From Frigoriglobus tundricola (GTDB taxonomy: Bacteria; Planctomycetota; Planctomycetia; Gemmatales; Gemmataceae): DNA of 64,000 nt. The position numbers were made by a program, and so were the translations under genes. The stretch is taken from assembly GCF_013128195.2 (NCBI RefSeq), contig NZ_CP053452.2, positions 806,001-870,000 of the forward strand, written 5' to 3'. Under the pieces are notes generated by a model that searched no databases, was not told where the DNA came from, and worked only from the letters and a program-made list of their open reading frames with translations. Below, piece by piece: positions 1-20,441 of this stretch; within the stretch, counting starts at the first letter, position 1, and each line of letters begins with the position of its first letter.

Positions 1-2
1 GG

Positions 3-378
3 GCGGCCCGCGAGGCGGCCGAGATGCTGTTCGAGCAGTTCGGAGCCAAGGCGGGCCGCAGCGTGCCGGAACTGACGGCGCGGATCGAAGGGATCGCCGC
101 CCGATACGGCGACGACGCGATCATTGCCATGAGAAAGGGCGGCCCGTCGGCGCTGGGTCTGGTGGAAGCGGCGGGGGCCGACGGCGCCAGGGCCGTTCGG
201 GTGCTGGCCGTTCACGGCGAGCAGGGCGCGTCGCGGGTGCTGTCCCGGCCGACGGCCATGAAGCAGTTCCTGCAATACGGCGACGACGCGGCGTGGGTAC
301 TCGTCCGCCACCCCGGCGTGGCCGAACCGCTGGTCGAGCGCGGGGGCGCGCAGGCGGTCAAGGCGCTGGGGGCGGTCG
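3..378 (+). pseudogene. 5'-clipped, 3'-truncated host gene of unknown function
   Basis: An open high-GC frame enters from the left edge and reads on through the first ATG at 24. The product is Ala/Gly/Val rich, with recurring segments such as RYGDDAIIA and QYGDDAAWV that suggest a helical repeat protein. I do not recognise a named family. From about 378 the frame continues to 761, but composition and sense change there, because the opposite strand from 390 encodes a recombinase. The gene is therefore inferred to be interrupted by the left end of the integrated element. The original C-terminus was not found elsewhere in the window. Confidence 0.5.
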
Positions 379-389
379 ATCACGATGGA

Positions 390-1184
390 AGCCGAGAACA
401 TCACCCCACCGTCACGGAGAGCGCCGGGGCGAAGGTTGCAAATGTCATCGAGACGACAACCCGTAATCGTCTTCAGTCGGAAGAACAGCTTCGGGAACTC
501 CCAACCTGGGTACTCGGCTTCCAGCCAAGCGAAGAACTCTTCAAGCTGCGAATCGTTCACCCACTTCACGGAAGGCTTGTCAGCCTTCGGGGGTTTGAGG
601 TTAGCGAACGGGTTCACTTTGACGATTTTCAGTTTGCCGTGAAACCACTTGCCCCAGAGGGCGGAAAGGTTGCTGAGACGGGAAGCCACGCTATGCGGGC
701 TGTGCTGCTTACCTTCGACGTACTTCGCTCGCTTGTCTTTGGCAGTGGTGTAATCGTCTAGCCACGTTTGGGCCATGCTCTCGTCTACGTCGCCCGGCCC
801 CGAAACCTCTTTGTAAAAGGCACGAACTAGCGCCATGTCCTTCAAGTAGTTCGCCAGTGTGGTTTCACGGTTCCCGCTCGCCTTGAACGCTTTGGTAAGC
901 CGCTTCGCCGCTTCGTCCCAGGTAACTTTATCCTTCGTGGGGAGCGGTGCGGCGAACATCTGGCAAATTACCGCTACGGCCTTGCGGTGGGCTTCCGCTT
1001 CTCGTTCTTGCTTCTCTTTCTTCCCGGCCTTGCCATCGAGTACGGCGAGTTCCAGGGAGCGCTTCCGGCGTTGGTTGTCCTTGTCCAGAAACCGAACGTG
1101 GTAAGCCCCGCCGATTTCCAGAAGCCCGTAACCCACAGGTTCCCGGCCTTCGACTTTTGCAGTGTGCTGGAAAATGCGTCCCAT
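390..1184 (-). pseudogene. Tyrosine recombinase (phage-type integrase), truncated in the catalytic domain
   Basis: Reading leftwards from the ATG at 1184, preceded by a GAGAGGG ribosome site, the protein opens with a short beta-rich arm-type region. A helical core-binding domain follows at about residues 75-190, then the start of the catalytic domain with TGCRLDDICNLRP, whose Arg244 is the first catalytic Arg of the family. The remaining H-x-x-R and Tyr motifs are absent. At about 390 the sequence changes into the antisense of the broken host gene, with no stop before the window edge. It probably once integrated the element and is inactive here. The truncation could be a real rearrangement or an assembly join. 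Confidence 0.75.
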
Positions 1185-1221
1185 CGCTTACCCTCTCGGT
1201 TTGGTGTCCAGAGAGGGCAGT

Positions 1222-1920
1222 TTAGCATAGGTGATTTTTGGACACAATCCCAGGTTGGGAGATTTTTTGCCGCACCAGTTCGGCAATCGTCTGTCCGGTG
1301 ATCCGCTCGCACTCTTGCAGGCTGTAACTGGCTTGGCGGTTCCGGTTCCATGCCTTGAACCGCTGAGACGAAGCAACCAAGTGAGTAACGCCCGGCCTCG
1401 GTATCGAAAAGTGGGCGGGATGGTGGCCGAACCACACTCCGAGCGCTGGGCAGTTAGTCCACTTCTCGGTAAGGTGTAACTGTCCCGAATCAATCCCAAC
1501 CATGCAAGCGGCACGGTTAAGTAGGTAGGCCACTTCAACTAAATTTAAGCGGTGCCAGTCGCCTAAGTGTATAACCCGTGGCTTCGGCCCTTCCACTACT
1601 CGCCTGTCCCAATCGAGTAAAAGGATAGTCGCATCTGTGGCCCCGACGATTGCTTTGTACGTTTCGGCCTCTAGCTCTGGAGTAAAGTTCTTTTCCCTGG
1701 TGCTAGTGTTACCCCTCGTGTGCATTGCCACTACGGGGCCGTGTTCGTTAAGCCACTTGTCAATTAGCGTTCGGCTTTCGTCCTTCAGATATTGTTCAAG
1801 GCTAAACCGTAGTCCCAGGTAGCCGGTTACGAACGGATCGGCGCTAACAGCAGGCCACATTCGTTTACAGAAAAGTCGGAAGTCGGAACCCGTTAATTTA
1901 GCTAGTTCGTGGGGAATCAT
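1222..1920 (-). CDS. GT9-like (heptosyltransferase-type) glycosyltransferase
   Basis: A 232-residue protein whose C-terminal half carries VGIDSGQLHL at about residues 142-151. This matches the D-S-G-x-x-H-L nucleotide-sugar-binding signature of glycosyltransferase family 9, followed by a VWFGHHP segment where the family usually has a FG-x-T turn. It is shorter than the usual 330-350 residues, so it may represent mainly the C-terminal Rossmann domain. It lies just upstream of the recombinase on the same strand with a 37-base gap. In a phage-like element it could decorate host glycans or a virion protein, which is inference. Confidence 0.6.
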   Translation of the reverse strand: MIPHELAKLTGSDFRLFCKRMWPAVSADPFVTGYLGLRFSLEQYLKDESRTLIDKWLNEHGPVVAMHTRGNTSTREKNFTPELEAETYKAIVGATDATILLLDWDRRVVEGPKPRVIHLGDWHRLNLVEVAYLLNRAACMVGIDSGQLHLTEKWTNCPALGVWFGHHPAHFSIPRPGVTHLVASSQRFKAWNRNRQASYSLQECERITGQTIAELVRQKISQPGIVSKNHLC

Positions 1921-1958
1921 TCCCTAGTTAGGGGTGGTGGCGCAAAATCCCGCTCATG

Positions 1959-2008
1959 CTCGCCTGGGCCAAAATCCTGCTGGCGGGTGTTGCTGCCGAG
2001 ATTTTGCG
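1959..2008. repeat. 50-bp direct repeat, copy 1
   Basis: This 50-base sequence recurs without mismatch at 2659-2708. It contains AAAATC and GATTTTGCG at its ends, and a further CGCAAAATC lies just outside at 1941-1949, giving an interrupted inverted arrangement. It lies 14 bases upstream of a consensus-like promoter at 2023-2051. Confidence 0.9.
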
Positions 2009-2022
2009 AATTTGGCAGGGGT

Positions 2023-2051
2023 TTTACAAATCTGATTTATCGTGGTATAAT
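2023..2051 (+). promoter_or_regulatory. Sigma-70-type promoter for the 2099 gene
   Basis: A -35 box TTTACA (2023-2028) and a -10 box TATAAT (2046-2051) are separated by 17 bases. This is close to the bacterial consensus and lies 47 bases before the likely ATG at 2099. Confidence 0.7.
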
Positions 2052-2098
2052 CGGCCCAGTTTTAACCGATTCGCCCGTTACTCATGCTGGGGTTAACG

Positions 2099-2602
2099 AT
2101 GGATAGGAAATGGGAATTCGAGATTTTCGCATCCGACGCATTAAAGAAAGGCGGGAAAGTCTGGCTAGGGGAAGAACTCTTGAAGCAAACCAAGTGGCTA
2201 GACAAAATCGGTAACTGGCTTCGTGAAGAACTAAGAAGATACCCAGACAAAGGAACCGAAATCTTCTCGGAGTGGTTCGACTGCTCAAAGAAAGAGGCCG
2301 AAGCGTTACGAGCTATGTTCTTCGTTAACCCCGATGCCGTGGCGAAGCGATACCTCCGAACGGTTATCGAGGCGTTACTGAAAAAGCTACACGATGAAAA
2401 CGTAGACGGTGCAAGGTTAAACCTATCGCTGGAATCTGGCGCAACGGCTACCGTGACATTCAAGGGGGTTGAAACCGAATATACGGTTCCCGGACATGCT
2501 GGCTTAGTCGGAGAAGTATTCTACAGTAACCAGACGACACAAACGATATTCCAGAAATTCGTATCTCACCCGTTCTGGCAATATAGCCACCGAAGCAGGT
2601 AA
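2099..2602 (+). CDS. Hypothetical protein of the integrated element
   Basis: About 167 residues from the ATG at 2099; an ATG at 2084 is possible but leaves a less natural N-terminus. The protein is charged and helical in its first 110 residues, then has a short beta-rich part. No signal peptide, membrane segment or catalytic motif is visible, and I do not recognise the family. It has its own promoter (2023-2051) and its own terminator (2616-2641), so it is a single-gene unit. Its lower GC than the flanking host genes fits transfer with the element. Confidence 0.7.
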   Translation: MDRKWEFEIFASDALKKGGKVWLGEELLKQTKWLDKIGNWLREELRRYPDKGTEIFSEWFDCSKKEAEALRAMFFVNPDAVAKRYLRTVIEALLKKLHDENVDGARLNLSLESGATATVTFKGVETEYTVPGHAGLVGEVFYSNQTTQTIFQKFVSHPFWQYSHRSR

Positions 2603-2615
2603 CTCGCACCATGCA

Positions 2616-2641
2616 AGCCCGAACTAGGTTCGGGCTTTTTT
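2616..2641 (+). terminator. Rho-independent terminator
   Basis: A 9-bp perfect stem (AGCCCGAAC with GTTCGGGCT), a 3-base loop and a run of six T, 13 bases after the stop of the 2099 gene. Confidence 0.85.
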
Positions 2642-2658
2642 CGGAATCAAGCTGACAA

Positions 2659-2708
2659 CTCGCCTGGGCCAAAATCCTGCTGGCGGGTGTTGCTGCCGAG
2701 ATTTTGCG
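2659..2708. repeat. 50-bp direct repeat, copy 2
   Basis: Identical to 1959-2008. It again lies upstream of a TTTACA/TATAAT promoter (2768-2797) and just after a transcription unit, so repeat plus promoter recurs as a module. Confidence 0.9.
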
Positions 2709-2767
2709 GTTTGGGCTTTGTTCGTTTGTGGTTGTACACCCACAATCCGATAAAAATTCCGAGTCGC

Positions 2768-2797
2768 TTTACAAACTGTGGAAGCCGGTGGTATAAT
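2768..2797 (+). promoter_or_regulatory. Sigma-70-type promoter for the 2840 gene
   Basis: TTTACA (2768-2773) and TATAAT (2792-2797) with an 18-base spacer. The GTGGTATAATC context is the same as at 2042-2052. Confidence 0.65.
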
Positions 2798-2839
2798 CAC
2801 CCGCCGTTAAGAAGCCGGTTGTATACACCAGAGGTTACG

Positions 2840-3295
2840 ATGAAAACTCGGAAGATTCCTCAGAAGCATCGGGCGCATTTGGAAAAGTTTTACTACATCT
2901 CTGATGCCAGTAACGAGAGTGATAAAGAAGACAACGGCCTCACGAAGCAAACCCGAAAGAAGAAATGGCGAGAAACAGAAGCGAGTGGGCACGTCGTTCA
3001 GGGTGGCGTGCGCCTGCCCTTGTTGATTCAAGCAGACGGGGCGGAAAGTCATCCGCTTCCCGCCGAAGGAGGCCGGTTCACTCTGAAAGAACTCCAAAAT
3101 TTTGTCGGGGGGGAGATTGAACTTCTTCGCATCCGCCCGAAAGTGGGCTTGGGCCGGTGCTGGTTGATCGTGAACGACAAGGGCCGACTATATCACTTGC
3201 CACCGAACCGTTTCGCCTCAATGCTGAGGGGAGATTTGATCGTAGGGGACGTTGTGGTAATCCCTGATTCGATGTTCCGCCCCTGGGGAATGTGA
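2840..3295 (+). CDS. DUF3846-like small protein
   Basis: 151 residues from the ATG at 2840. The N-terminal 75 residues are charged and probably disordered. The C-terminal half has GGEIELLRIRP, LIVNDKGRLYHLPPNR and GDLIVGDVVVIPD. This is the arrangement of DUF3846 proteins common in phages and conjugative elements (a beta-barrel-like domain with a conserved N-D/E-x-G and L-P-x-N pattern). Its biochemical role is unknown. It has its own promoter and converges on the 3351 gene, with a 21-bp hairpin between them. Confidence 0.65.
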   Translation: MKTRKIPQKHRAHLEKFYYISDASNESDKEDNGLTKQTRKKKWRETEASGHVVQGGVRLPLLIQADGAESHPLPAEGGRFTLKELQNFVGGEIELLRIRPKVGLGRCWLIVNDKGRLYHLPPNRFASMLRGDLIVGDVVVIPDSMFRPWGM

Positions 3296-3299
3296 CGCT

Positions 3300-3348
3300 A
3301 GGGCGCAAAATCTCACTGGGACAAACCCCCAGTGAGATTTTGCGCCCT
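3300..3348. terminator. Perfect 21-bp hairpin between convergent genes
   Basis: Left arm 3300-3320 and right arm 3328-3348 pair perfectly around a 7-base loop. The arms contain CGCAAAATCT and AGATTTTGCG, the same words as at the ends of the 50-bp repeats. Its position between convergent genes fits a bidirectional terminator, although no clear T run follows. A protein-binding site is an alternative. Confidence 0.6.
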
Positions 3349-3350
3349 CC

Positions 3351-3587
3351 TCACTCAATTACGCACTTCTCGCCTTGCTCGATGGCAAGCATCAATTCCG
3401 GCACCGTAAGGGCACACAGGCTATACTCCCGCACGGCCTCGGCCTTCCACCACCCCAATAGCGCAGCGGGGTTAACCCCATCGACTTCAGCCACGGCTAG
3501 GAACTTCGCCCGGTTCTCGCTGGCGAACACTTCCAAGCAAGTTAACAAGTGGCCTAAGTCCGATTCTTCGATTTCGAGTTTAATCAT
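3351..3587 (-). CDS. Small hypothetical protein
   Basis: 78 residues from the ATG at 3587 (a start at 3638 would overlap the divergent 3630 gene). It is acidic, with IEESDLGHLLTCLEVFASEN at the N-terminus, and shows no recognised domain, signal peptide or membrane segment. It is transcribed divergently from the helix-turn-helix gene at 3630, so the two may share a control region of about 40 bases containing a TATTAT box near 3602. Confidence 0.6.
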   Translation of the reverse strand: MIKLEIEESDLGHLLTCLEVFASENRAKFLAVAEVDGVNPAALLGWWKAEAVREYSLCALTVPELMLAIEQGEKCVIE

Positions 3588-3629
3588 ATTGTACTCTGTG
3601 ATATTATACGCTGGTGCATAACTACCGGC

Positions 3630-4337
3630 ATGAAACACATTTTCGCCATTACTCCCCGTGAGATACGGTTAGCTCTGGGGTATTTTAAGATTACCGAAGC
3701 CGCACGGGTGGCACTCACCGAACCCGCCGCACTCAAGAGGGCGATTCGAGCAGGGCAGGTTCCGGGGCCGTTGCACACGCTACCCGGCCACAGAAAGCAG
3801 AAGTTCTATCACGCCGACGACTTGCCGAAGCTCCGAAAGCACTTCAACAGCGTTGAAGACAGCAAGCGGGTATCTGCCCGTTCGCTCGGCTTGCTCAGTA
3901 TGGCGACGGTGGCGCAGCGGGTGGGTTGCTCCTACTCCCGGTTCTGTTCGTTTGTTCAGAACGGCCGTATTCCAGCCCCGGAAGTGATCCGCACCCGCCG
4001 CAAGCTGTACAGCGAAAGCCAAATCCCGGAAATCAAAAAGGCAGTCGAGAGGCTTGAGCGGATCAAAGCCCCGTCGCCGTATCGCCAGTGGGAAGCCGAA
4101 GGACTGTTCACTCAACGTGCGGCAGCGAAAAAGCTCGAAATGCCGTACATCACCTTCCAGCACTTCGCCGCTACGGGCAAAATCCCAAAGCCAACCCGCA
4201 AGTATACTGGCAATTATTTCCCGCTCTACAACGAGGCTGATTTGGAAGCCGTTAAGCAGTGCTTATCGGCTATCGGATATACGCCGAACCCGAAGCTAAG
4301 AAAGGCGAGGAAGGGCACGGGTGCTAAACTAAATTAA
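3630..4337 (+). CDS. Protein with three MerR/excisionase-like helix-turn-helix repeats
   Basis: 235 basic residues with three repeats of one pattern. Each has a Leu/Met-Ala-x-x-V/A-A-x-x-hydrophobic helix, a turn, and a recognition helix ending in G-x-I/V-P (AGQVPGP, NGRIPAP, TGKIPKP), followed by a Tyr-rich x-L-Y/F-x-x-x-D/E-L strand. This is the winged-helix layout of MerR, Xis and DUF-type DNA-binding modules, so three tandem DNA-reading units are inferred. A recombination directionality or regulatory role in the element is plausible but unproven. Its stop overlaps the tail of the opposite-strand 4324 gene. Confidence 0.65.
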   Translation: MKHIFAITPREIRLALGYFKITEAARVALTEPAALKRAIRAGQVPGPLHTLPGHRKQKFYHADDLPKLRKHFNSVEDSKRVSARSLGLLSMATVAQRVGCSYSRFCSFVQNGRIPAPEVIRTRRKLYSESQIPEIKKAVERLERIKAPSPYRQWEAEGLFTQRAAAKKLEMPYITFQHFAATGKIPKPTRKYTGNYFPLYNEADLEAVKQCLSAIGYTPNPKLRKARKGTGAKLN

Positions 4338-4602
4338 CCGCAAATATCTCGTCTTCCTTGAAGGTGATCTTTTGGCCCTGGCGGTACTCGATGGCGAACC
4401 AGGGTTCGGATTTCAGTTTGCCGACTAGCTTACGGCCCTTGACGGCCGAAACCATTAGCCACATCCATTCCGTACCGCCTAAATGGGTGTCAAAGCCGAT
4501 CTTAACGCTTTTGCCTAACCACTTTTCCAAGCCGCCTTGCTGGGCTTTTATTTGCTCGGCATCAATCGTCTGTTGTCGCATTGAAACTGTGTCTCTGTCC
4601 AA
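4324..4602 (-). CDS. DUF2314-like small protein
   Basis: 92 residues using a TTG start at 4602, which has AAGG six bases upstream; an ATG at 4581 is the alternative. The segment GKSVKIGFDTHLGGTEWMW, then VSAVKGRKLVGKLKSEPW and GQKITFKEDEIFAV, resembles DUF2314/YegJ-like domains (E-x-M-W-v-x-V, a glycine-containing strand, and G-D/Q-x-v-x-F-x-x-x-x-I). The function of that family is unknown. No signal peptide is present. It runs against the preceding gene with a 14-base overlap. Confidence 0.55.
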   Translation of the reverse strand: MDRDTVSMRQQTIDAEQIKAQQGGLEKWLGKSVKIGFDTHLGGTEWMWLMVSAVKGRKLVGKLKSEPWFAIEYRQGQKITFKEDEIFAVNLV

Positions 4603-4715
4603 ATCGCACCTTAAAGTAAGTTTGTAGTTAGAAGGGGTGGGCGATGCCCCGTCTTAATCATACGCTGCCAGAACTTCTCCGTTAAGACTAATAGAGAGAA
4701 AAGATCAAATAAAAG

Positions 4716-5186
4716 TTATTGTGATTGTATAGCAGATTTCTTCTCGCACGCTGCCCACCACCGAAGCACGAACGCTACCAGCTTGTCCCCAGGGTGTATA
4801 TCGCCCGTCCGTACCTCGCCCTCTGCCCACCACATTACGCTAAACTGTACACAATCCCGCACGGTTTTTATCTGCGAACCGTCTTCGGGCTTCCGGTGGC
4901 GCAACAGCACGGCGGTTATTCTCCCCGCTCCCGCACGGATGTAGTTTTCCTGTAATCGCCTCTGGCCCCTTGACAGAAATTCCCAATTAGCTGTTTCCGA
5001 ACTCAACTCGAATTGCAGGATATTCCCGGCGTTGTCTAGCACCATGTCTATATCCGAAGGCGTTATATTCCGTGGCAAGATATTCCCCCAGCTTGAGTGA
5101 TCGAGCATTTTCGCCCTAGCGTAGTTAAACGGTGAAAATATTTTGCCCCGCACTTGCCTCCCGGATATTACTGTTCCCTTACTCAC
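4716..5186 (-). CDS. Hypothetical protein, possible PD-(D/E)XK-fold nuclease relative
   Basis: 156 residues. A central stretch reads ITPSDIDMVLDNAGNILQFE, then LSSETANWEFLSRGQRRLQE and RITAVLLRHR. The order Asp-Ile-Asp, a strand ending in F-E-L-S, and a helix with a conserved-looking Q-R fits the core of restriction-endonuclease-like folds. The usual E-x-K lysine is replaced by Ser, so activity is doubtful. No known named family is claimed. It is a lone gene on the minus strand with a divergent small gene at 5238. Confidence 0.5.
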   Translation of the reverse strand: MSKGTVISGRQVRGKIFSPFNYARAKMLDHSSWGNILPRNITPSDIDMVLDNAGNILQFELSSETANWEFLSRGQRRLQENYIRAGAGRITAVLLRHRKPEDGSQIKTVRDCVQFSVMWWAEGEVRTGDIHPGDKLVAFVLRWWAACEKKSAIQSQ

Positions 5187-5237
5187 CTATATGGAGGGTA
5201 GAGGGCGAGCAAAACCGGAAAGGAATATCGGCAAATT

Positions 5238-5453
5238 ATGTGGAAAGCGAAATTAACGGAACTCATCGAAGCGGACACGAAGGGCGGTAAAGTAAAATAC
5301 CTGCGGAGCGTGCTGCGCCAAGTCGAGACTTACGGCGAGCGTCATTTCCCCACCCCCGCACAACTCAGGATATTAGCCCCCATGTGGCAAGCTCACGAGA
5401 AGCGGCGAATAAAGCGTGCGTTCTCGGATATTATCGGCGATATACTGGCGTGA
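5238..5453 (+). CDS. Small basic hypothetical protein
   Basis: 71 residues, mostly helical and basic (EKRRIKRAFSDIIGDILA at the C-terminus). An AGGA sequence lies 13 bases upstream of the ATG. No domain recognised. It lies between the divergent 5186 gene and the primase leader and may be an accessory replication or regulatory protein, which is only inferred from position. Confidence 0.5.
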   Translation: MWKAKLTELIEADTKGGKVKYLRSVLRQVETYGERHFPTPAQLRILAPMWQAHEKRRIKRAFSDIIGDILA

Positions 5454-5536
5454 ATCGGCTGTACAGCAGACTAAGCGGTAGTCGGGTTGTATAGGTAAAA
5501 TTATAGAATCTTGTGAAAATCGAGAAGTGAATCGTC

Positions 5537-5596
5537 TATAATGGTAGCGGAAAATAAAACAAGTCCGGTAGCCCCCGACAAAGGCTCTACCGGACT
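5537..5596 (+). promoter_or_regulatory. Promoter -10 box and leader hairpin upstream of the replication primase
   Basis: TATAAT at 5537-5542 has weak -35 candidates near 5511-5518. Downstream, AGTCCGGTAG (5562-5571) and CTACCGGACT (5587-5596) form a perfect 10-bp stem with a 15-base loop in the leader, 14 bases before the start codon and just ahead of the AAGGAAA ribosome site. Such a leader structure could control primase translation, for example by autoregulation or an antisense RNA. Confidence 0.5.
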
Positions 5597-8301: not shown

Positions 8302-9858
8302 TTACGCGACGAGGAGTCGGGATTGTTGACGCTTCGCCCACACGTCGGGCAGAAGAGGTGCGAGTTGGTCCGCCGTCGGCTTCTCGCCCAACGCATGAAG
8401 GGCCGGAAGAACCTCACGCAGGTATGCCGTCGCATCGAGACCCAAGTGCCGACACGTGCCCACCACCGAGAAGTGAACCGCGGCGTGCGCACCGGCCTTC
8501 GCACTGCCCACGAACTTCCAATTGCTCCGACCCACGGCGATCAGCCGGAGCGTTCGCTCGCTCAGGTTATTATCGATCGAGAGTCGCCCGTCCTCGGTGT
8601 ACCGGACGAACGCGGCCCAGTGATTCGCCACGTACCGGATCGCGGCCCCCAGGGCCGACTTGGGCAACGCCGTCCCGAGTGCCGCGTCGAGCCACGCCTT
8701 CAGGTCGTTCAGGATCGGGAGCGCCCTTGCTTGCCGCGTCGCGCGACGGGCGACGATGTGCTCCGGTGAGTCCGGCGCCGGAAGCGTGTGCTCGATGTGG
8801 TACAACCGGTTGATGCGTTCGACCGCCTTGGCCCCGGGGTCCCCGGCGCCGAGGAACTTGCGGCGCGCGTGGGACCAACAGGCGACGTGCTTGGCTCCGG
8901 CGGCGAACAGGCCGTTGTACTGTGCGAGGCAATCGGCATGCACGTGGCCCCGGAAGCCGCCTAAGAACTGGTCCGGTCCGCTCGCGGCGTCGTAACCGGT
9001 CGTGAAGTGGAACGCCGTGTACGGGGCCGTCGGATCTCCGATCCCCACCCAGAAGTGGCCGTGCGGCATCGTTCGCTCACCGGGCTGGGCGAACCGCGAG
9101 CGGGTGTCATCGGACCAGAGGACCGGACACGTGCGCACCCGCTCGAGCATCAACTGGTACAGCGACGTCAGTAACACCGCGGACTGTTTCACCCAATCGC
9201 CCAAGGTACTCTCGGACACCGTCACCCCCGCGCGCCCGATCCGGGCGACTTGGCGGTGCAGCGGCAGGTGGTCGAGGAACTTCCCGACGAGAACCTCGGC
9301 CAACAAGCCCGGACCACACAGTCCCTTGTCGATCGGTCCGACGGTACTCGGCGTGGCGGTCCGGATCCGGTCCTCGGCCCGGACCGTCGGGGGGCACTGT
9401 TGGCACGCGTACGTCTTGCGGATCGTGCGCCGCACGAAGTACGGGGTCGGGTCGCAATCGAGTTGCTCGGTCTGGGTCTGGCCGATGCACACGCGGTCGC
9501 CACCACAGCCCGAGCAGCGGCGCTCGTCGGGGGTCAGATCGAGGACCGTGTCGCGGCGTTCGAGGTGCGCCGGGAGTGGCGAACGGCCGTGGTCGTGGCG
9601 CCGCTTCGCGGGTCCGTCGCCGGGGACCTTCGGTGGCTTCGGTGTGCGTTCGGACCGCCGGCCGAACCGGTGCGTCGTGGCCCGGTCCAACTTCGCCTTC
9701 AAGGCCGCGACCTCGGCACGCAGGTCGTCGATGGTCCGTTGGAACTGCTCGGCCTGGCGTTGGAGCTGCGTGCGGAGGTCGGCGTTTTCGGCCTGGAGGG
9801 CACGCACCATCCCTTGGAGGGTCAGCACGTCGGTCGGCAGCGGGGCGTCGGAGTCCAT
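8302..9858 (-). CDS. tnpC: IS66 family transposase (TnpC)
   Basis: 518 residues. An N-terminal coiled coil (about 10-62) is followed by a zinc-binding region with CSGCGGDRVC and YACQQC, then the DDE catalytic domain. Recognisable family blocks are VLWSDDTRSR (first Asp), GHVHADCLAQYN (second Asp), CWSHARRKF, and IDNNLSERTLR with the catalytic Glu and RSNWKFVGSAKAG. Full length compared with the family (about 500-530). It lies 13 bases downstream of tnpB. It catalyses DNA cleavage and strand transfer of the element. Confidence 0.95.
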   Translation of the reverse strand: MDSDAPLPTDVLTLQGMVRALQAENADLRTQLQRQAEQFQRTIDDLRAEVAALKAKLDRATTHRFGRRSERTPKPPKVPGDGPAKRRHDHGRSPLPAHLERRDTVLDLTPDERRCSGCGGDRVCIGQTQTEQLDCDPTPYFVRRTIRKTYACQQCPPTVRAEDRIRTATPSTVGPIDKGLCGPGLLAEVLVGKFLDHLPLHRQVARIGRAGVTVSESTLGDWVKQSAVLLTSLYQLMLERVRTCPVLWSDDTRSRFAQPGERTMPHGHFWVGIGDPTAPYTAFHFTTGYDAASGPDQFLGGFRGHVHADCLAQYNGLFAAGAKHVACWSHARRKFLGAGDPGAKAVERINRLYHIEHTLPAPDSPEHIVARRATRQARALPILNDLKAWLDAALGTALPKSALGAAIRYVANHWAAFVRYTEDGRLSIDNNLSERTLRLIAVGRSNWKFVGSAKAGAHAAVHFSVVGTCRHLGLDATAYLREVLPALHALGEKPTADQLAPLLPDVWAKRQQSRLLVA

Positions 9859-9871
9859 GCCGAAAGATGGG

Positions 9872-10249
9872 TCAGGACGTGCGGGTGCGCAAGTCGGATT
9901 CGGACGCTTTCGGGCGACAATAACGGGTGAAACGTTTGGCCGACGAGTAGTCGATGCCGTCGAGGATCATGGCGAACTCGGTGGCGGTGAGTTCGAGTTT
10001 GCGGTCGGTCGGGGTGGGGAAGTGGTACCGCCCGCGCTCGAGTCGCTGGCACCACAAGCAGAGCCCGTGGCGGGTCCAGTACAGGGCCTTGAGCCGGTTG
10101 GCCGAGCGATTGGTGAAAATGAACAGATGCCCGCTCAAGGGATCGGCCTGAAGCGTGGATTGGACGTGGCGGTACAGGCCGTCGAACCCGAGGCGCAGAT
10201 CGACGGCCCCGCCGTACCAGAGCTGGGTGGTGGGTGGAATGCTCAGCAC
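9872..10249 (-). CDS. tnpB: IS66 family accessory protein TnpB (Orf2)
   Basis: 125 residues from a GTG at 10249 that overlaps the end of tnpA by 7 bases, so translation is probably coupled. The sequence shows the family blocks LWYGGAVDLRLGFDGL, GHLFIFTNRSANRLKALYW and CQRLERGRYHFP. TnpB is required with TnpA for efficient IS66 transposition in studied members, though its exact biochemical role is unclear. The longer upstream frame is only tnpA read out of frame. Confidence 0.93.
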   Translation of the reverse strand: MLSIPPTTQLWYGGAVDLRLGFDGLYRHVQSTLQADPLSGHLFIFTNRSANRLKALYWTRHGLCLWCQRLERGRYHFPTPTDRKLELTATEFAMILDGIDYSSAKRFTRYCRPKASESDLRTRTS

Positions 10250-10590
10250 GGGCGCCCCTCCACCGCATGCACGAGGGCGGCGATGACCTCCGGTCGGGCA
10301 TCGACCGGGAACCGCAGGACGGTTCCCGACGGGAACACCACCTCGATCGGCGGTCCGGCGGGCGACGGGGTCAGGCGGATGGGGACGAGCGTCGGAGTGA
10401 CCGGTACGGGTGATGGGGCGTGGTCCGCGAGGGTTCGCCGCCACACATAAAAGGACGGCGGTGAGACGCCCTCGGCGGCACAGAACTGAGCGATCGTCTG
10501 CCCCGACCGGCGGAACCGTTCGAGTCGTTCGGCCCACCGGCGACGGGTGGCGGCCGGGTCACGGCGAGAGGCAGCAGGGACAGCAGGCAC
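10243..10590 (-). CDS. tnpA: IS66 family accessory protein TnpA (Orf1)
   Basis: 115 residues from a GTG at 10590 with GGAGGA seven bases upstream. The N-terminal half has a helix-turn-helix of transposase IS3/IS66 Orf1 type (RFRRSGQTIAQFCAAEGVS, then FYVWRRTL). The C-terminal part has IEVVFPSGTVLRFP, typical of this family. It probably binds the element ends. First gene of the tnpABC unit. Confidence 0.92.
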   Translation of the reverse strand: MPAVPAASRRDPAATRRRWAERLERFRRSGQTIAQFCAAEGVSPPSFYVWRRTLADHAPSPVPVTPTLVPIRLTPSPAGPPIEVVFPSGTVLRFPVDARPEVIAALVHAVEGRPC

Positions 10591-12006: not shown

Positions 12007-13071
12007 ATGCAATACCCTTTAATCCCTCACTGGCGCAAGCTCGCCTTGTTGTCGAATGGTGAGCTTGGCAGATATGACGTTGCCGACGTGCATCTGTCAT
12101 GCGCAGAAGGGTTGCCAGGGGCCGACGAAATAGATCGCAACTACTGCCTGTACAAACTTGACGACTGGAAGGATCGGGTAAAGGAGTACACCACGCTTCT
12201 GATGCCGCAATTCCGCCGCAAGCCGAGGGAGTACGAGAATTCAGAGGCGTACTTTCGTGCGCTGGCGATGATTACAGTTCTACAACGAGATTGCGGGGTG
12301 CGGTACAATCCGGCGAAGATTCCCGACGATGTCCCGTTCGGTACAGCGGATTGCTTCATCCACGGCATCATCCAGGGCGAGGGCGGAACGTGCGCTTCGT
12401 TGCCGGTGGTGTATGCGGCGGTAGGGCGGCGGTTGGGCTACCCCATCAAGCTGGTGACGACAAGGGCCAAAAAGGGCGGGCACTTGTTCGTCCGATGGGA
12501 CGATCCGAAAACTGGCGAGCGGTTCAATATAGAGGCAAGCGGGCACGGCATGGGAACGCCGGACGATGATTATTTTCGAGAGGGCTTGTACGATGTCAGT
12601 CCCGAAGTGGAGGTTGACGGATGTTACCTCCAATCGAAGACGCCACGGATGGAACTGGCGGGATTCCTCAGTAGTCGTGCGTTCCAGTGGAGTTTTGTTC
12701 GGGACTGGTGGCGCTGCGTGGACGCATGGGCGTGGGCAGCGGCGCTCGTGCCCGAAAACAAGCTCTATCGAAACTCGCTCAAAACCTCAATGATCGAGTG
12801 GGATAAGGAGCAGCGGGCACGCAAGCCGATCGGGTTCCCTCACCTTTTGGTTCGAGCGATCAAGCGCCAGTTCCCGGAGTCACTGCCGCTGGAGTTGGAG
12901 AAGGATATTTGCGGGCTTACGGCAACCCACAACATGCTCTCCGATCCTCGGCTCGAAGAAAAGTATTGGAAGCCGATGCGGAGCGGAGTTTGTCAGCGTG
13001 CGCCGTACCAAGCGGTAGCGGATTTCGCTCCCGATACGTCGTTTCTCATCAACCTGCACTTTCACGCTTAA
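12007..13071 (+). CDS. Transglutaminase-like (papain-fold) domain protein
   Basis: 354 residues from the ATG at 12007 (an ATG at 11998 is also in frame). GEGGTCASLPVVYAAVGRRL contains the probable nucleophile Cys129; GGHLFVRWDD contributes His159, and RFNIEAS may carry the acidic third residue. This Cys-His-Asp/Glu order and the G-x-C-x-S/A-x-P block are typical of bacterial transglutaminase-core proteins, which act as proteases or amide-modifying enzymes. There is no signal peptide, so it is probably cytoplasmic. It lies 10 bases upstream of the Rhs toxin-like gene on the same strand, suggesting co-expression. Confidence 0.7.
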   Translation: MQYPLIPHWRKLALLSNGELGRYDVADVHLSCAEGLPGADEIDRNYCLYKLDDWKDRVKEYTTLLMPQFRRKPREYENSEAYFRALAMITVLQRDCGVRYNPAKIPDDVPFGTADCFIHGIIQGEGGTCASLPVVYAAVGRRLGYPIKLVTTRAKKGGHLFVRWDDPKTGERFNIEASGHGMGTPDDDYFREGLYDVSPEVEVDGCYLQSKTPRMELAGFLSSRAFQWSFVRDWWRCVDAWAWAAALVPENKLYRNSLKTSMIEWDKEQRARKPIGFPHLLVRAIKRQFPESLPLELEKDICGLTATHNMLSDPRLEEKYWKPMRSGVCQRAPYQAVADFAPDTSFLINLHFHA

Positions 13072-13081
13072 AGGATGAACC

Positions 13082-13858
13082 ATGTACGATCCCACCATCG
13101 GGCGCTGGCTGACTCCTGATCCTATCGGGTTCGCCGGGGGCGATGCCAATATCTATCGTTTTGAAGGGAACGATCCAGAAAACCACGTTGACCCTAGTGG
13201 AGAAAAGATTGTAGCTCTGAAATCGAAATCAATTGTTCCAGACGATAGTATGGTGTTTGTTTACATTCCAGACTCATATGGTGGCGATATAAATGACTAT
13301 GTATCGCAGATATATCCACAGTACAAAATTTATATGTACGATAAAGACTTTAACGATAAGGTCTTAAAGGAGGCGTTTCCACTCCGCTTCTTTATTTCAG
13401 GGGCGGCAAAGGATTCGCAACTGGAAAAAGAAATTGCCGCAATTCTTACCATCGCAAAAGGCGCCAGTGTGCCGGTTGCTATTCCTGGCCTCGGCAGCGA
13501 AATGGGGAATCCAGAAAAATACGGCGATCCGTGCGTCAGATGGACAAAAAAGGTTGAAGACGCCTGGACTAAGCTGACAAAGGGACGAAATACCACACTT
13601 AAATTCTATCGCATGGAACTTAGATACCCTTCAAACACAAGCGAGAAGCACTCAATTATAATTCTTTCGTATAAGTTAAATGGCAATACATCGCTTCTTG
13701 GCCTCGATATTGGCTCCGTGAATGCCGTTATGGGCAACGACACGAGGTACACATCGTTTTTCTTTGATCCCAACTCTGCGGCAGCGGACGGGAAATTAAA
13801 TAAGGAATTCACTGAAGACTTAGCGGGCTGGTTGAAAGCAATGCGAGGTCAAAAGTGA
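13082..13858 (+). CDS. Orphan Rhs-repeat core tip with C-terminal toxin-like domain
   Basis: 258 residues, with an AAAGGA ribosome site before the ATG. Residues 2-40 are the RHS-associated core boundary (YDPTIGRWLTPDPIGF through NHVDPSGE). In full Rhs proteins this ends the shell and precedes a variable toxin. Here the whole upstream shell is missing. The remaining 215 residues are AT-richer than neighbours and contain Cys151 (GDPCVRW), His190 (EKHSII) and Asp209 (LGLDIG), an order compatible with papain-like peptidase or deamidase toxins. That activity is inference. The following gene overlaps by GTGA and is the candidate immunity gene. Confidence 0.8.
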   Translation: MYDPTIGRWLTPDPIGFAGGDANIYRFEGNDPENHVDPSGEKIVALKSKSIVPDDSMVFVYIPDSYGGDINDYVSQIYPQYKIYMYDKDFNDKVLKEAFPLRFFISGAAKDSQLEKEIAAILTIAKGASVPVAIPGLGSEMGNPEKYGDPCVRWTKKVEDAWTKLTKGRNTTLKFYRMELRYPSNTSEKHSIIILSYKLNGNTSLLGLDIGSVNAVMGNDTRYTSFFFDPNSAAADGKLNKEFTEDLAGWLKAMRGQK

Positions 13859-14067
13859 AGAAATTTTGGCGTTCGTCCAGTGGCGATTGGGCTTCTCTGC
13901 GGAAAGCCGCCCTAATATCCGTGTTGATAGTACTGGTTTTTTTTGCGTGGGCAATAGATGGCGAGCGTGGCCCTGTGCGGCAATTTCCAGGGATTATCCT
14001 GTTCACAGTCGTATTGGTGCTGGCCGCTGCCTTAATTGCCGTAGCTCTAAGGGCTATTCGCCGTTAA
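13855..14067 (+). CDS. Small two-helix membrane protein, candidate immunity protein
   Basis: 70 residues from a GTG at 13855 overlapping the TGA of the Rhs gene (GTGA). It has two hydrophobic stretches, about residues 18-31 (AALISVLIVLVFFAWAI) and 45-66 (IILFTVVLVLAAALIAVAL), and Lys/Arg at both ends, so both termini are probably cytoplasmic. Tight coupling to a toxin-like gene is the usual arrangement of immunity genes, but no sequence family is recognised. A phage holin-like protein is the alternative. Confidence 0.6.
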   Translation: MKKFWRSSSGDWASLRKAALISVLIVLVFFAWAIDGERGPVRQFPGIILFTVVLVLAAALIAVALRAIRR

Positions 14068-17495: not shown

Positions 17496-17670
17496 CTACT
17501 GGCTGAACAAGGCCGAAGAAAAGGACATGCTACGGGCACGGATGGCGGCGAAGTTAATCACCGTCATCGTGCGAGATACGATTCTAGCCGACGTGTCTAG
17601 CATCATAGATAAGGCGATTGAAAACGAACCGGCCAGGGCTAAATATCCGCATGAGCCAATACGATCCTGA
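17485..17670 (+). CDS. 61-residue hypothetical protein
   Basis: ATG at 17485, overlapping the end of the epimerase by 11 bases, with AGAGGAA just upstream. It is helical (KDMLRARMAAKLITVIVRDT) and charged, without a recognised domain. The next gene begins within its end (17651), so it is part of a compact overlapping phage-like gene string. Confidence 0.55.
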   Translation: MENNYWLNKAEEKDMLRARMAAKLITVIVRDTILADVSSIIDKAIENEPARAKYPHEPIRS

Positions 17671-18166
17671 TTACCCGAACAGTGCGGCGAACCCGTTTTA
17701 TCATATCGTCGTCGGTGGCGGGAGTGGTGGGGGTGGTAGCGGGATACTCGAAGCCACGGGGGTTAATGCCGAGCAAGCCCCTGTAGGTAACTTGCAAGTT
17801 TCGCAAGTTATCACCGACTTAGTAGGTAAGCTAATCACGCTGCCGTATTGCAATCCCGAAGCGATGGTGAGCGGTACGGGCAGCGCAACGAACACGGCCA
17901 ACACATCGGTTATTGCGGCCCAGGGTTCTGGCGTCCGCATTTACGTTACGAGCATTGTGATTACGAACACGTCGGCTACAAACACCTTCGTTAACATCCT
18001 CGACGGGACTACAACGAAGCTGGTTTACCCCGCTGCCGCTGGTGGCGGTGCCGTGCATACTCTCGCCGTGCCGTTGCGGTTGAGTGCGAATAGTGCCCTT
18101 CAGTTCTCGGCGGGTAACTCGGCATCAACGGTGTACGTTTCCGCAATCGGCTACACGGGACGATAA
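17651..18166 (+). CDS. Phage-type structural (tail fibre or capsid-associated) protein
   Basis: 171 residues from the ATG at 17651. A Gly/Ser linker (VVGGGSGGGGSG) follows a short Asn/Pro/Tyr-rich N-terminus. The C-terminal 100 residues form a beta-sandwich-like run: YVTSIVITNTSATNTFVNI, then TTTKLVYPAAAGGG, LRLSANSALQFSAG and STVYVSAIGYTG. This pattern is typical of small phage virion or decoration proteins. It is one of the better signs that the element is phage-derived. Confidence 0.65.
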   Translation: MSQYDPDYPNSAANPFYHIVVGGGSGGGGSGILEATGVNAEQAPVGNLQVSQVITDLVGKLITLPYCNPEAMVSGTGSATNTANTSVIAAQGSGVRIYVTSIVITNTSATNTFVNILDGTTTKLVYPAAAGGGAVHTLAVPLRLSANSALQFSAGNSASTVYVSAIGYTGR

Positions 18167-18169
18167 TCA

Positions 18170-18556
18170 ATGTACTTGACGAAAGAAGCGTTGCGGGGGT
18201 TGGTTGAAGAGTGCCAGAGGGAACGCACGATTACGCCCTCGATGTTTGCCGCCTTCGTCAAGATTGCAAAGTATGTCTATACCACACTGAATGTTCCGTA
18301 CTTAATCGACTTAGACGATTTCATTCAGGAGGCGTGTATGCGGCTGATGAAGTGGCTTTACAAAATTCGGCCAGAAGATAACGTGTTCTCGTACTTAACG
18401 GAGTTGTGTCGGCTTGCGGGTTGTGAAATGCGTGAACGGGCATTCGCTCACGAGCGGATGATAGATCGCTACATTCTTCGTGTCAAAGAGGCCATGCCGG
18501 GTAGGATACAGCGGGAAATAAATATTGAGTCAAAGGATAAATGCCAGATTTACTAA
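18170..18556 (+). CDS. Sigma-70 region-2-like protein, phage type
   Basis: 128 residues, starting 4 bases after the preceding stop. YLIDLDDFIQEACMRLMKWL followed by VFSYLTELCRLAGCEMRERA resembles the region 2 helices of sigma factors (D-L-x-Q/D-E in region 2.1-2.2 and W/F-x-x-x-x-x-R-x-x in 2.4). No region 4 is visible, as in phage late sigma factors of the T4 gp55 kind. It could redirect host RNA polymerase to late genes, which is inference. The next gene starts inside its 3' end. Confidence 0.6.
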   Translation: MYLTKEALRGLVEECQRERTITPSMFAAFVKIAKYVYTTLNVPYLIDLDDFIQEACMRLMKWLYKIRPEDNVFSYLTELCRLAGCEMRERAFAHERMIDRYILRVKEAMPGRIQREINIESKDKCQIY

Positions 18557-19335
18557 CGCTACTAGGTGCGAGTGGGCAAGCGGCCTCCAGTTCCGGCACC
18601 GGAACCGGCACGGCCTCGGCTGACTCTACCGCTTCCGGCGTTGCTAAGTCGCTCAGTGCTTCGAGTGGCACGGCTTCGGCAGACTCAACGGCGAGCGGTG
18701 CCACCAGTGCGGTTAGCGTCTCAACTGGCACGGCTTCGGTCTTGTCTACGGCCTCTGCTGTGGGGATGGTGTTACTGACTTCAACCGGAACCGCTTCGGC
18801 TTCCGCTTCGGCCGCTGGCGACGGGAGAGGGTTACTTTCCGCAGTGGGTACGGTCTCGGCCGGTGCGACGGCTTCGGCTGTCGGTTCAACGAGTTCAACC
18901 AGTTCGGGCACGGGCACGGCTTCGGCCAGTGCTACCGTTTCTGGTGTCGGTTCATCGACGTTCACTTTCCCGGCGCAGACGGCGGTTAGCGTCTCGCTCG
19001 GAACGGCGTCAGGATCGGCTATAGCCAGTGGAACGGGGAATTCGGTGCTGGCCTCGATTGGAACGGCGTCAGGATCGGCTACGGCTTCGGGCGTCAGCAG
19101 TTCGCTTATTGTGTCTGTTGGTACTGCTACAGCAGATTCTACGGCCTCTGCGGGCGCTCTCTCGCCCGTTGCCAATGTTCGGTTAAGTAACTCGAAGCTG
19201 CGTGTTGTAAGCCAAGACACGATTGCCCTCTCGCCGATCTTGAACAAGGGTACTGTGAACTTCTTTTGCGGACGGCACAAAACGCACTGGTGCCGTTCGT
19301 GCGCCTTCCACGGGGGAACGGAACACGGGATGTAG
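18541..19335 (+). CDS. Ser/Ala/Thr/Gly repeat protein with a Cys/His tail
   Basis: 264 residues; the ATG at 18541 follows AAGGATAA and overlaps the sigma-like gene by 16 bases. About 200 residues are degenerate repeats of roughly 11 or 22 residues (GTASADSTASG and relatives), ending with VANVRLSNSKLRVVSQ. The last 30 residues (FFCGRHKTHWCRSCAFHGG) carry a Cys/His cluster that could bind zinc. The repeats suggest a beta-structured surface or fibre protein, as in phage tails. A late shift of frame could explain the odd tail; neither is proven. Confidence 0.6.
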   Translation: MPDLLTLLGASGQAASSSGTGTGTASADSTASGVAKSLSASSGTASADSTASGATSAVSVSTGTASVLSTASAVGMVLLTSTGTASASASAAGDGRGLLSAVGTVSAGATASAVGSTSSTSSGTGTASASATVSGVGSSTFTFPAQTAVSVSLGTASGSAIASGTGNSVLASIGTASGSATASGVSSSLIVSVGTATADSTASAGALSPVANVRLSNSKLRVVSQDTIALSPILNKGTVNFFCGRHKTHWCRSCAFHGGTEHGM

Positions 19336-20043: not shown

Positions 20044-20067
20044 CCCCGGAACTACCCCTGGGAAATG

Positions 20068-20098
20068 AAGAAACCCCAAGGATTCCTTGGGGTTTCTT
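20068..20098 (-). terminator. Terminator of the tRNA-Gln gene
   Basis: A 14-bp perfect stem with a 3-base loop, 6 bases beyond the tRNA 3' end on the minus strand; the stem ends in TTTCTT. It also marks the element-host boundary region. Confidence 0.75.
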
Positions 20099-20103
20099 CT
20101 GAG

Positions 20104-20174
20104 TTGGGGATCTAGGATTCGAACCTAGACTAAGTGAGTCAGAGTCACTCGTGCTACCGTTACACCAATCCCCA
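20104..20174 (-). tRNA. tRNA-Gln (anticodon CUG)
   Basis: The minus strand folds as a full cloverleaf. The acceptor stem pairs TGGGGAT with ATCCCCA, the D-arm is GGTGTAACGGTAGCAC, the anticodon arm AGTGA-CTCTGAC-TCACT has CTG at positions 34-36, and the T-arm is CTAGGTTCGAATCCTAG. The discriminator base is A, and CCA is not encoded. A U1-A72 pair at the top of the acceptor is typical for bacterial tRNA-Gln. It marks the right limit of the low-GC element and is a plausible former integration target, although no second copy of its 3' end was found near position 380. Confidence 0.95.
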
Positions 20175-20441
20175 ACAAAACCATGTCGGAACTGCGGTTC
20201 GGCCGCTCCGTTGGTAGCATAAGAGTAATGTATCGCGGGCCGTTCCGGTTGTCTAGCTCTCCAGCACACCCCGGCGGCACCGCGGAACCCGCCGCACGGG
20301 TCAGAGTTGCTCGTTGCCTGGGAAAGCTAGTACGCGGCTCAAAAGCCCGCGTGGGCTCGATCCCCGAGCGACCCGCCGATCCGGAGCGGCGGGTTCGACA
20401 GCGGCCCCGGACCCACCGTCCTTCTCATCATCGGAACTGCC

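Follow-up and report, generated by a model that had tools for sequence, protein, structure and literature searches.

In ordinary Rhs proteins, as passages of two reports describe them, the toxin is encapsulated, and an aspartyl protease located where the shell ends sets it free (PMC8636562, PMC8765631). For RhsA of Pseudomonas protegens, a passage of the second report describes D1324 and D1346 as the equivalents of the Tc-toxin catalytic pair and as needed for toxin release, and it gives W, L, or F as the consensus residue after the motif PxxxxDPxG (PMC8765631). In addition, according to passages of Zhang et al. (2012), some RHS toxins have "inactive transglutaminase" domains fused ahead of their repeats; these domains have lost at least one catalytic residue and were proposed to be anchors (PMC3482391). 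Here, we analyzed a locus in a 64,000-nucleotide stretch of the Frigoriglobus tundricola genome (positions 806,001 to 870,000 of NZ_CP053452.2; called the window below) in which a toxin tip of the Rhs type directly follows a transglutaminase-like gene, whose product we call the companion. This locus resembles the Rhs/YD-repeat toxins (RhsA, Rhs1, and TcC) in having a constant boundary with PxxxxDPxG and a putative catalytic aspartate pair, an exchangeable C-terminal toxin, and a following gene as presumed immunity gene, but the window tip has neither a shell nor an N-terminal delivery domain and is accompanied by a separate, conserved transglutaminase-like gene instead. With the domains in the cited passages of Zhang et al. 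(PMC3482391) it shares the link between a transglutaminase-type domain and Rhs toxins; in contrast to them, the companion is encoded by a separate gene, has invariant Cys, His, and Asn residues, and has no repeats behind it. Our main reading, to which we give a probability of roughly 60%, is that the locus is a two-gene, shell-less Rhs toxin cassette in which a transglutaminase/papain-type enzyme would act on the tip in trans at the boundary. We rate the cassette as new as a variant of Rhs polymorphic toxins, and a search of open-licence papers found no description of a companion-tip pairing or of menin in bacteria.

The tip ORF has an ATG start and the N-terminus MYDPTIGRWLTPDPIGF; the ATG immediately precedes YDPTIGRWLTPDPIGF, and the ORF thus opens one residue ahead of the Rhs core boundary. 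A likely ribosome-binding site lies 6 nt 5′ of the ATG and overlaps the stop codon of the companion gene (Table 1). Residues 1 to 40 of the tip match positions 37 to 75 of the 76 in the NCBIfam profile TIGR03696 (Rhs_assc_core), with 43.8 bits against a cut-off of 32.5, which makes this a boundary match beyond chance, and nothing apart from TIGR03696 passed the profile cut-offs for the tip protein. Since the tip starts at profile position 37 and the companion gene, not a shell, is found directly 5′, the YD-repeat shell is absent. An earlier note on this DNA had proposed that the tip begins at the RHS core boundary without its shell and has its own ribosome site, and both proposals agree with what we found.

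Residues 2 to 40 of the tip align with the last part of the conserved core in Rhs, teneurin-like, and TccC-type proteins of known structure. Within this part, the DPIG and DPLG motifs of the Rhs protein 7q97 line up with the tip such that D13 and D37 fall on their aspartates, and by this sequence alignment D13 and D37 would be a putative catalytic pair. Motif and spacing (22 residues in RhsA and 24 in the tip) also suggest that they occupy the same positions as D1324 and D1346 of RhsA. The PxxxxDPxG motif of the tip reads P32...D37-P38-S39-G40 and is followed by E41 in place of L, which differs from the L, W, or F of Rhs/YD-repeat toxins.

Table 1. Positions of the features of the cassette in the window
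Feature	Position	Strand	Basis or residues
Companion enzyme gene, 354 aa: Transglut_core2-like domain and helical C-terminal part	12007..13071	+	C129 12391-12393, H159 12481-12483, N174 12526-12528
Likely ribosome-binding site AAAGGA of the tip gene	13070..13075	+	read from sequence
Shell-less Rhs toxin tip gene	13082..13858	+	258-aa ORF, TIGR03696 match
Constant Rhs boundary, tip residues 2-40	13085..13201	+	TIGR03696; alignments to 7q97, teneurin-like proteins, and TcdB2-TccC3
Variable domain, tip residues 41-258	13202..13855	+	C151 13532-13534, H190 13649-13651, D209 13706-13708
Candidate gene for immunity, encoding 70 aa with two predicted membrane helices	13855..14067	+	ORF, hydrophobic stretches

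The companion gene ends 10 nt ahead of the tip ATG, just where a transglutaminase-like gene had been suggested. On its own, the window companion gives a weak match to the Pfam family Transglut_core2 (PF13369; E of 2e-4 and 21.3 bits, just under the cut-off of 23.5) and no other, while among 63 companion members 59 match this family at an E of up to 1 (best, 5.2e-12) and 19 match TPR_2 at the same limit. The combination of Transglut_core2 and TPR is the architecture of SirB1-like proteins. The companions are like these proteins in the two matches and differ from them in forming a distinct clade; 14 ordinary Transglut_core2-like relatives were examined and had no tip. A profile of the clade gives E values below 1e-70 for its full-length members in the class, 1e-36 to 1e-10 for fragments, and 1e-10 to 1e-5 for ordinary Transglut_core2-like relatives. 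In an alignment of 63 of the 68 candidate companions (four short matches and the split companion of L049 were left out), Cys129, His159, and Asn174 are invariant in all 63 and stand in the order of a papain/transglutaminase triad. The companion is under purifying selection, with omega values of 0.10 to 0.15 in four pairs among four members at dS values of 0.9 to 2.3, the highest of which is near saturation.

Relatives of the companion are present in 52 of 397 genomes of the class and in 39 of its 185 genera, fragments included. Loci were fetched by companion similarity alone, blind to what follows the gene, in four sets: 47 loci, namely 2 from the host genome and 5 plus 40 others (44 with a tip); 20 loci with weaker matches (17 with a tip); 10 viral contigs (9 with a downstream tip); and 8 loci from a search of the phylum (the tip lies downstream in 5 of them and upstream in 3). 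We found a downstream tip in 75 of the 85 fetched loci and a downstream Rhs tip on the same strand in 73 of the 80 assessable ones, that is, those whose contig covers the companion stop and 300 nt or more beyond it. The tip starts within 150 nt of the companion stop in 68 of the 75 cases. Among the seven assessable misses, L060, L072, L101, and L104 are without any tip and L149, L150, and L152 have a tip upstream. Tips were recognized with a home-made profile that was seeded from companion loci and whose matches were read by eye; it gave no match in the transglutaminase control loci described below. Some loci are near copies of each other (for example, L136 to L138), and 65 tip loci are left below 90% companion identity. 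The class search listed 78 companion matches, 14 of which (several of them fragments) were left out of the loci, and L153, a stretch without a companion, was excluded from the counts. The window tip is one of dozens of tips directly behind the same active-looking transglutaminase-type gene, and the description of it as an orphan in the earlier note has to be dropped, since the gene upstream is a near-obligate partner.

The host genome itself has a second copy of the companion, which is 78% identical to the first. Here too, a gap of 10 nt leads to a tip, with the N-terminus MYDPSIGRWLTPDP; by phmmer, the variable domain of this second tip is unrelated to that of the window tip. Fusions of companion and tip were not seen among the 75 loci (0/75). 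No upstream ORF family was common to 3 or more of 65 loci, and therefore the unit is the pair of companion and tip. The pair decays in places: no fewer than eight companions have internal stops or are split (L044, L048, L049, L076, L090, L093, L097, and L099). In the three loci with a tip upstream (L149, L150, and L152), the tip has a hydrophobic leader and the transglutaminase-type gene is a more distant one, which is possibly a second arrangement of the pairing. Three viral contigs (L139, L140, and L144) have a further tip that ends about 1 kb 5′ of the companion, showing that cassettes can hold several tips. In L072, the companion is followed by an ORF (4700-5593) with a stretch that looks like URI/GIY-YIG by eye, without a recognizable Rhs boundary and without a Pfam match.

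For a control, the same thresholds were applied to other transglutaminases. No downstream tip was found in 14 ordinary Transglut_core2-like relatives from the class (0/14) or in the 18 assessable loci among 20 fetched for more distant transglutaminases of the phylum (0/18); the phylum list runs into ordinary transglutaminases; 8 of its loci are part of the 85, and 20 of those that follow were sampled as this control. The link to a tip is thus a property of the companion clade and not of transglutaminases generally. Pooling the 18 distant transglutaminases with the 80 assessable loci gives 73 of 98, though these 18 belong to a more distant group. In the direction from tip to companion, the pairing is not obligate. 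In a sample of 20 loci with tip-type boundaries that were fetched without a companion, 22 of 28 tips by eye have more of the Rhs core immediately ahead of them, as is expected of classical orphan cassettes; these loci were chosen from matches outside the sets above, contig ends truncate several of them, and the sample describes such tips and not their frequency. The locus L168 has two tips that start exactly at M-YDP with no companion nearby, beside genes that by eye resemble fatty-acid synthesis genes, and since the genome of L168 has companions elsewhere, action of a companion in trans is possible there.

These comparisons bear on whether the window tip is an ordinary standalone Rhs tip cassette. 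Such toxin cassettes are well documented, according to passages of PMC3482391, and the host genome has long Rhs frames (2,594, 3,802, and 4,300 aa) with a related boundary. The window tip is like orphan rhs tips and cassettes in being a toxin tip without a full shell, but it has its own ribosome site, and the start codon of companion-linked tips is often placed at the boundary (in 35 of the 65 nonredundant loci it is the codon directly ahead of the first motif residue), in contrast to the longer core remnant seen by eye in most of the companion-free tips sampled. Together with the confinement of the 73/80 association to one companion clade, these differences make an ordinary cassette improbable.

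The tips of this class consist of different toxin domains exchanged behind the constant part. Nearly all of their variable domains are unrelated to one another; in a comparison of 42, only four pairs match at an E below 0.01, and one of these pairs comes from near-identical loci. We scanned 39 tips with Pfam (the 44 of the first set minus the window tip, which was scanned separately, and those of L048, L054, L079, and L082), and 4 of the 39 passed a cut-off: an SLT transglycosylase (L042), a WHH nuclease (L049), a TGL transglutaminase (L061), and a CDI EC869-type nuclease (L069). Two more had suggestive matches, to phospholipase A2 (PLA2; L068) and peptidase M76 (L077), and 31 had no match at an E of up to 0.05. 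Because the matched domains have typical toxin activities, we read the class as one of polymorphic toxins. Boundary and companion together are thus a signature that offers a route to new toxin domains, given the 31 of 39 scanned tips without a Pfam match. The constant part also varies. In one distant set, it is only about 27 residues long (PLGFAAGDANLYRYVGNSPTNxTDPSG), and in some distant members (by eye L091, L094, L100, and L103) the first aspartate of the pair is missing, so the autoprotease aspartate pair is not required by all members.

In our main reading, the first gene of the cassette would encode a dedicated enzyme of the transglutaminase/papain type whose C-terminal part is helical, the second would encode the last ~38 residues of an Rhs shell and an exchangeable toxin domain, and the gene behind them would probably be an immunity gene. 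The enzyme would recognize the constant boundary peptide as a substrate in trans, with cleavage or coupling at the boundary as the most likely reaction, and for the naked tip it could thereby take over the role that falls to the closed shell and its built-in aspartyl protease in ordinary Rhs proteins. We infer this effect of the companion because the only constant partner of the cage-less tip is an enzyme with an invariant papain-type triad, for which action on the constant peptide is the simplest reading. In the current picture, an Rhs toxin is cargo enclosed by a shell that cuts it free, and widespread shell-less tips that are tied to one clade of active-looking enzymes and are also carried by a phage would imply a further route by which such toxins are stored, matured, or delivered. 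In a Mantel comparison of companion distances with boundary-peptide distances, no coevolution was detected (r of 0.05, with 101 of 500 permutations as high). This missing covariation speaks against a tight, pair-specific fit of companion and boundary, although little covariation would be expected if the companion made a generic contact with a short conserved peptide.

A different division of labor, in which both genes encode toxins and the transglutaminase-like protein is the second effector of a double-effector operon, would be in keeping with passages of PMC3482391 that count transglutaminase-type domains among known polymorphic toxins and with the tip of L061, which is itself a TGL transglutaminase. 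We have little confidence in such an operon, since the companion is conserved while the tips exchange and is under purifying selection, and a toxin in its place should vary.

We also compared predicted structures. An AlphaFold2 model of the companion, built from five sequences, has a pLDDT of 70, with the last 80 residues below 50. With Foldseek, a putative cysteine protease and a transglutaminase were on top with weak E values, and menin was outside the top 50. With VIA-align, in contrast, menin was on top, with Z scores of 13.2 to 14.4 over 228 to 256 residues, values that helical models can reach by chance, and the next fold, that of transglutaminases, had a Z score of 8.5. The menin chains among the VIA-align matches include complexes of menin with an MLL peptide. 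At the level of sequence, no protein in the host genome, the companion included, matched the menin family (PF05053) at an E of up to 10; the companion profile found TPR proteins among PDB sequences and no menin among the best 60 of 150 matches; and the profile without its TPR part found nothing significant in the PDB and no menin. The likeness to menin (PF05053) is a possible match at the level of the fold, over most of a model with a pLDDT of 70 from five sequences. Menin is called solely eukaryotic in a passage of PMC10318531, and according to the same source human menin has a Ser at the position of the catalytic Cys, unlike the companion with its Cys129. We take menin as a lead to how the companion may work, through a peptide-binding pocket, and not as a sign of family membership.

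Two ideas, both of which we regard as unlikely, follow this lead in different directions. In a more specific form of the enzyme reading, the intramolecular shell and autoprotease would be replaced by a separate enzyme in trans, with the free N-terminal boundary peptide bound in a menin-like transglutaminase-plus-TPR pocket and cut or coupled to a carrier, and menin might have arisen from proteins like those of the bacterial family; we put this forward as a speculation. In the other, the companion would be a chaperone or adaptor whose helical part holds the boundary peptide and either keeps the naked toxin silent or passes it to an exporter. The TPR_2 matches in 19 of 63 companions, the alignment with menin over most of the model, the menin-MLL peptide complexes among the matching chains, and the leaders of some tips would all suit a chaperone. 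A strongly hydrophobic, signal-peptide-like stretch is found within 42 residues before the motif in 15 of the 75 tips, 8 of these 15 being on viral contigs and several of them near-identical; in all of the 15 except that of L151 the stretch extends up to the motif, so that the mature form would likewise start close to the boundary. We nevertheless doubt that the companion is a pure scaffold, for which Cys129, His159, and Asn174, invariant in 63 of 63, would be needless, and we retain the reading of an enzyme that would act on the tip.

The variable domain of the window tip was pointed out earlier for its Cys, His, and Asp residues, and C151, H190, and D209 are indeed all present at the positions given for them (Table 1). 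C151 is the sole Cys of the tip, and H190 is one of its two His residues. No homologues of the domain were found in the 397 class genomes, 99 relatives, phages, plasmids, and viral contigs (the last by peptide patterns that reach close relatives only). Four weak matches in the class were rejected: one lies in a stretch with stops, the other three are in long frames without an Rhs boundary in the stretch examined, and none aligns all three residues. By hhalign, nothing in the comparison of the domain with other tips scored above the reversed-sequence controls, one of which exceeded every real pair. A single-sequence AlphaFold2 model of the domain is poor (pLDDT of 39), and a fold search with it gave no meaningful fold match. 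This low-confidence model places C151 at the start of a helix (150 to 165) and H190 and D209 in strands (189 to 199 and 202 to 210, respectively), and the papain-like order of the three residues is a hint, from which our leading guess for the activity of the domain is a papain-like peptidase or amidase.

The gene that follows the tip has a GTG start, a 4-nt GTGA overlap with the tip stop, and two hydrophobic stretches, so the coupling of the tip to a putative 70-residue, two-helix membrane protein by GTGA that the earlier note reported is present in the DNA. All Pfam matches of the 70-aa protein were below cut-off. In the class, 12 of 54 tips have a 4-nt overlap with a following ORF that encodes 60 aa or more, compared to a mean of 9.7 at random stops, with 75 of 300 replicates reaching 12. 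Because this is not above chance, the GTGA overlap is uninformative for the class, and we rejected it as evidence for immunity. There is a modest excess of closely following genes, with the next ORF within −25 to +40 of the tip stop in 42 of 54 loci compared to a mean of 31.4 at random stops (standard deviation of 3.8 and maximum of 44 in 200 replicates). The gene 3′ of the tip varies between loci, as expected of immunity genes, and several of these genes encode small proteins with predicted membrane helices (L043, L065, L073, and L074). It is plausible that the 70-aa candidate gives immunity to the window tip, and we consider this its probable role.

The pair of companion and tip is also carried on a phage contig. 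In the viral contig L135, the pair consists of a companion that is 78% identical to that of the window and a different tip; its neighbor on one side is an integrase (phrog_1, 1.4e-10), and at a greater distance on the other side come a tail terminator (phrog_347, 1.3e-10) and the large subunit of a terminase (phrog_9, 7e-138). Together with the boundary match, this related pair supports the earlier idea that the tip is a shell-less polymorphic toxin of the Rhs type and belongs to a mobile cassette. In the window, a tRNA-Gln gene lies at 20103-20174, and the region to its left has a lower GC content than the rest, apart from the stretch at 8 to 11 kb. This region has phage-type methyltransferase and epimerase genes, an excisionase-like protein (phrog_66), and an ORF (17618-18163) similar to one on the viral contigs L141 and L142, all of which fit the phage-like element that had been proposed as the carrier, but the ORFs tested to the left of the tRNA-Gln gene include no capsid or terminase gene, so the term prophage goes too far. 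Positions 1 to 5000 and 20050 to 20250, around the tRNA-Gln end, share no direct repeat of 13 nt or more, and a scan for promoters and terminators gave results not above those for shuffled sequences. Overlapping minus-strand ORFs at 8302-10590 have the look of what we take to be an IS66-type transposon inserted in the element. At 18541-19335, the window encodes a low-complexity, repetitive protein of Ser, Thr, Ala, and Gly, which may serve the element as a fibre or surface protein.
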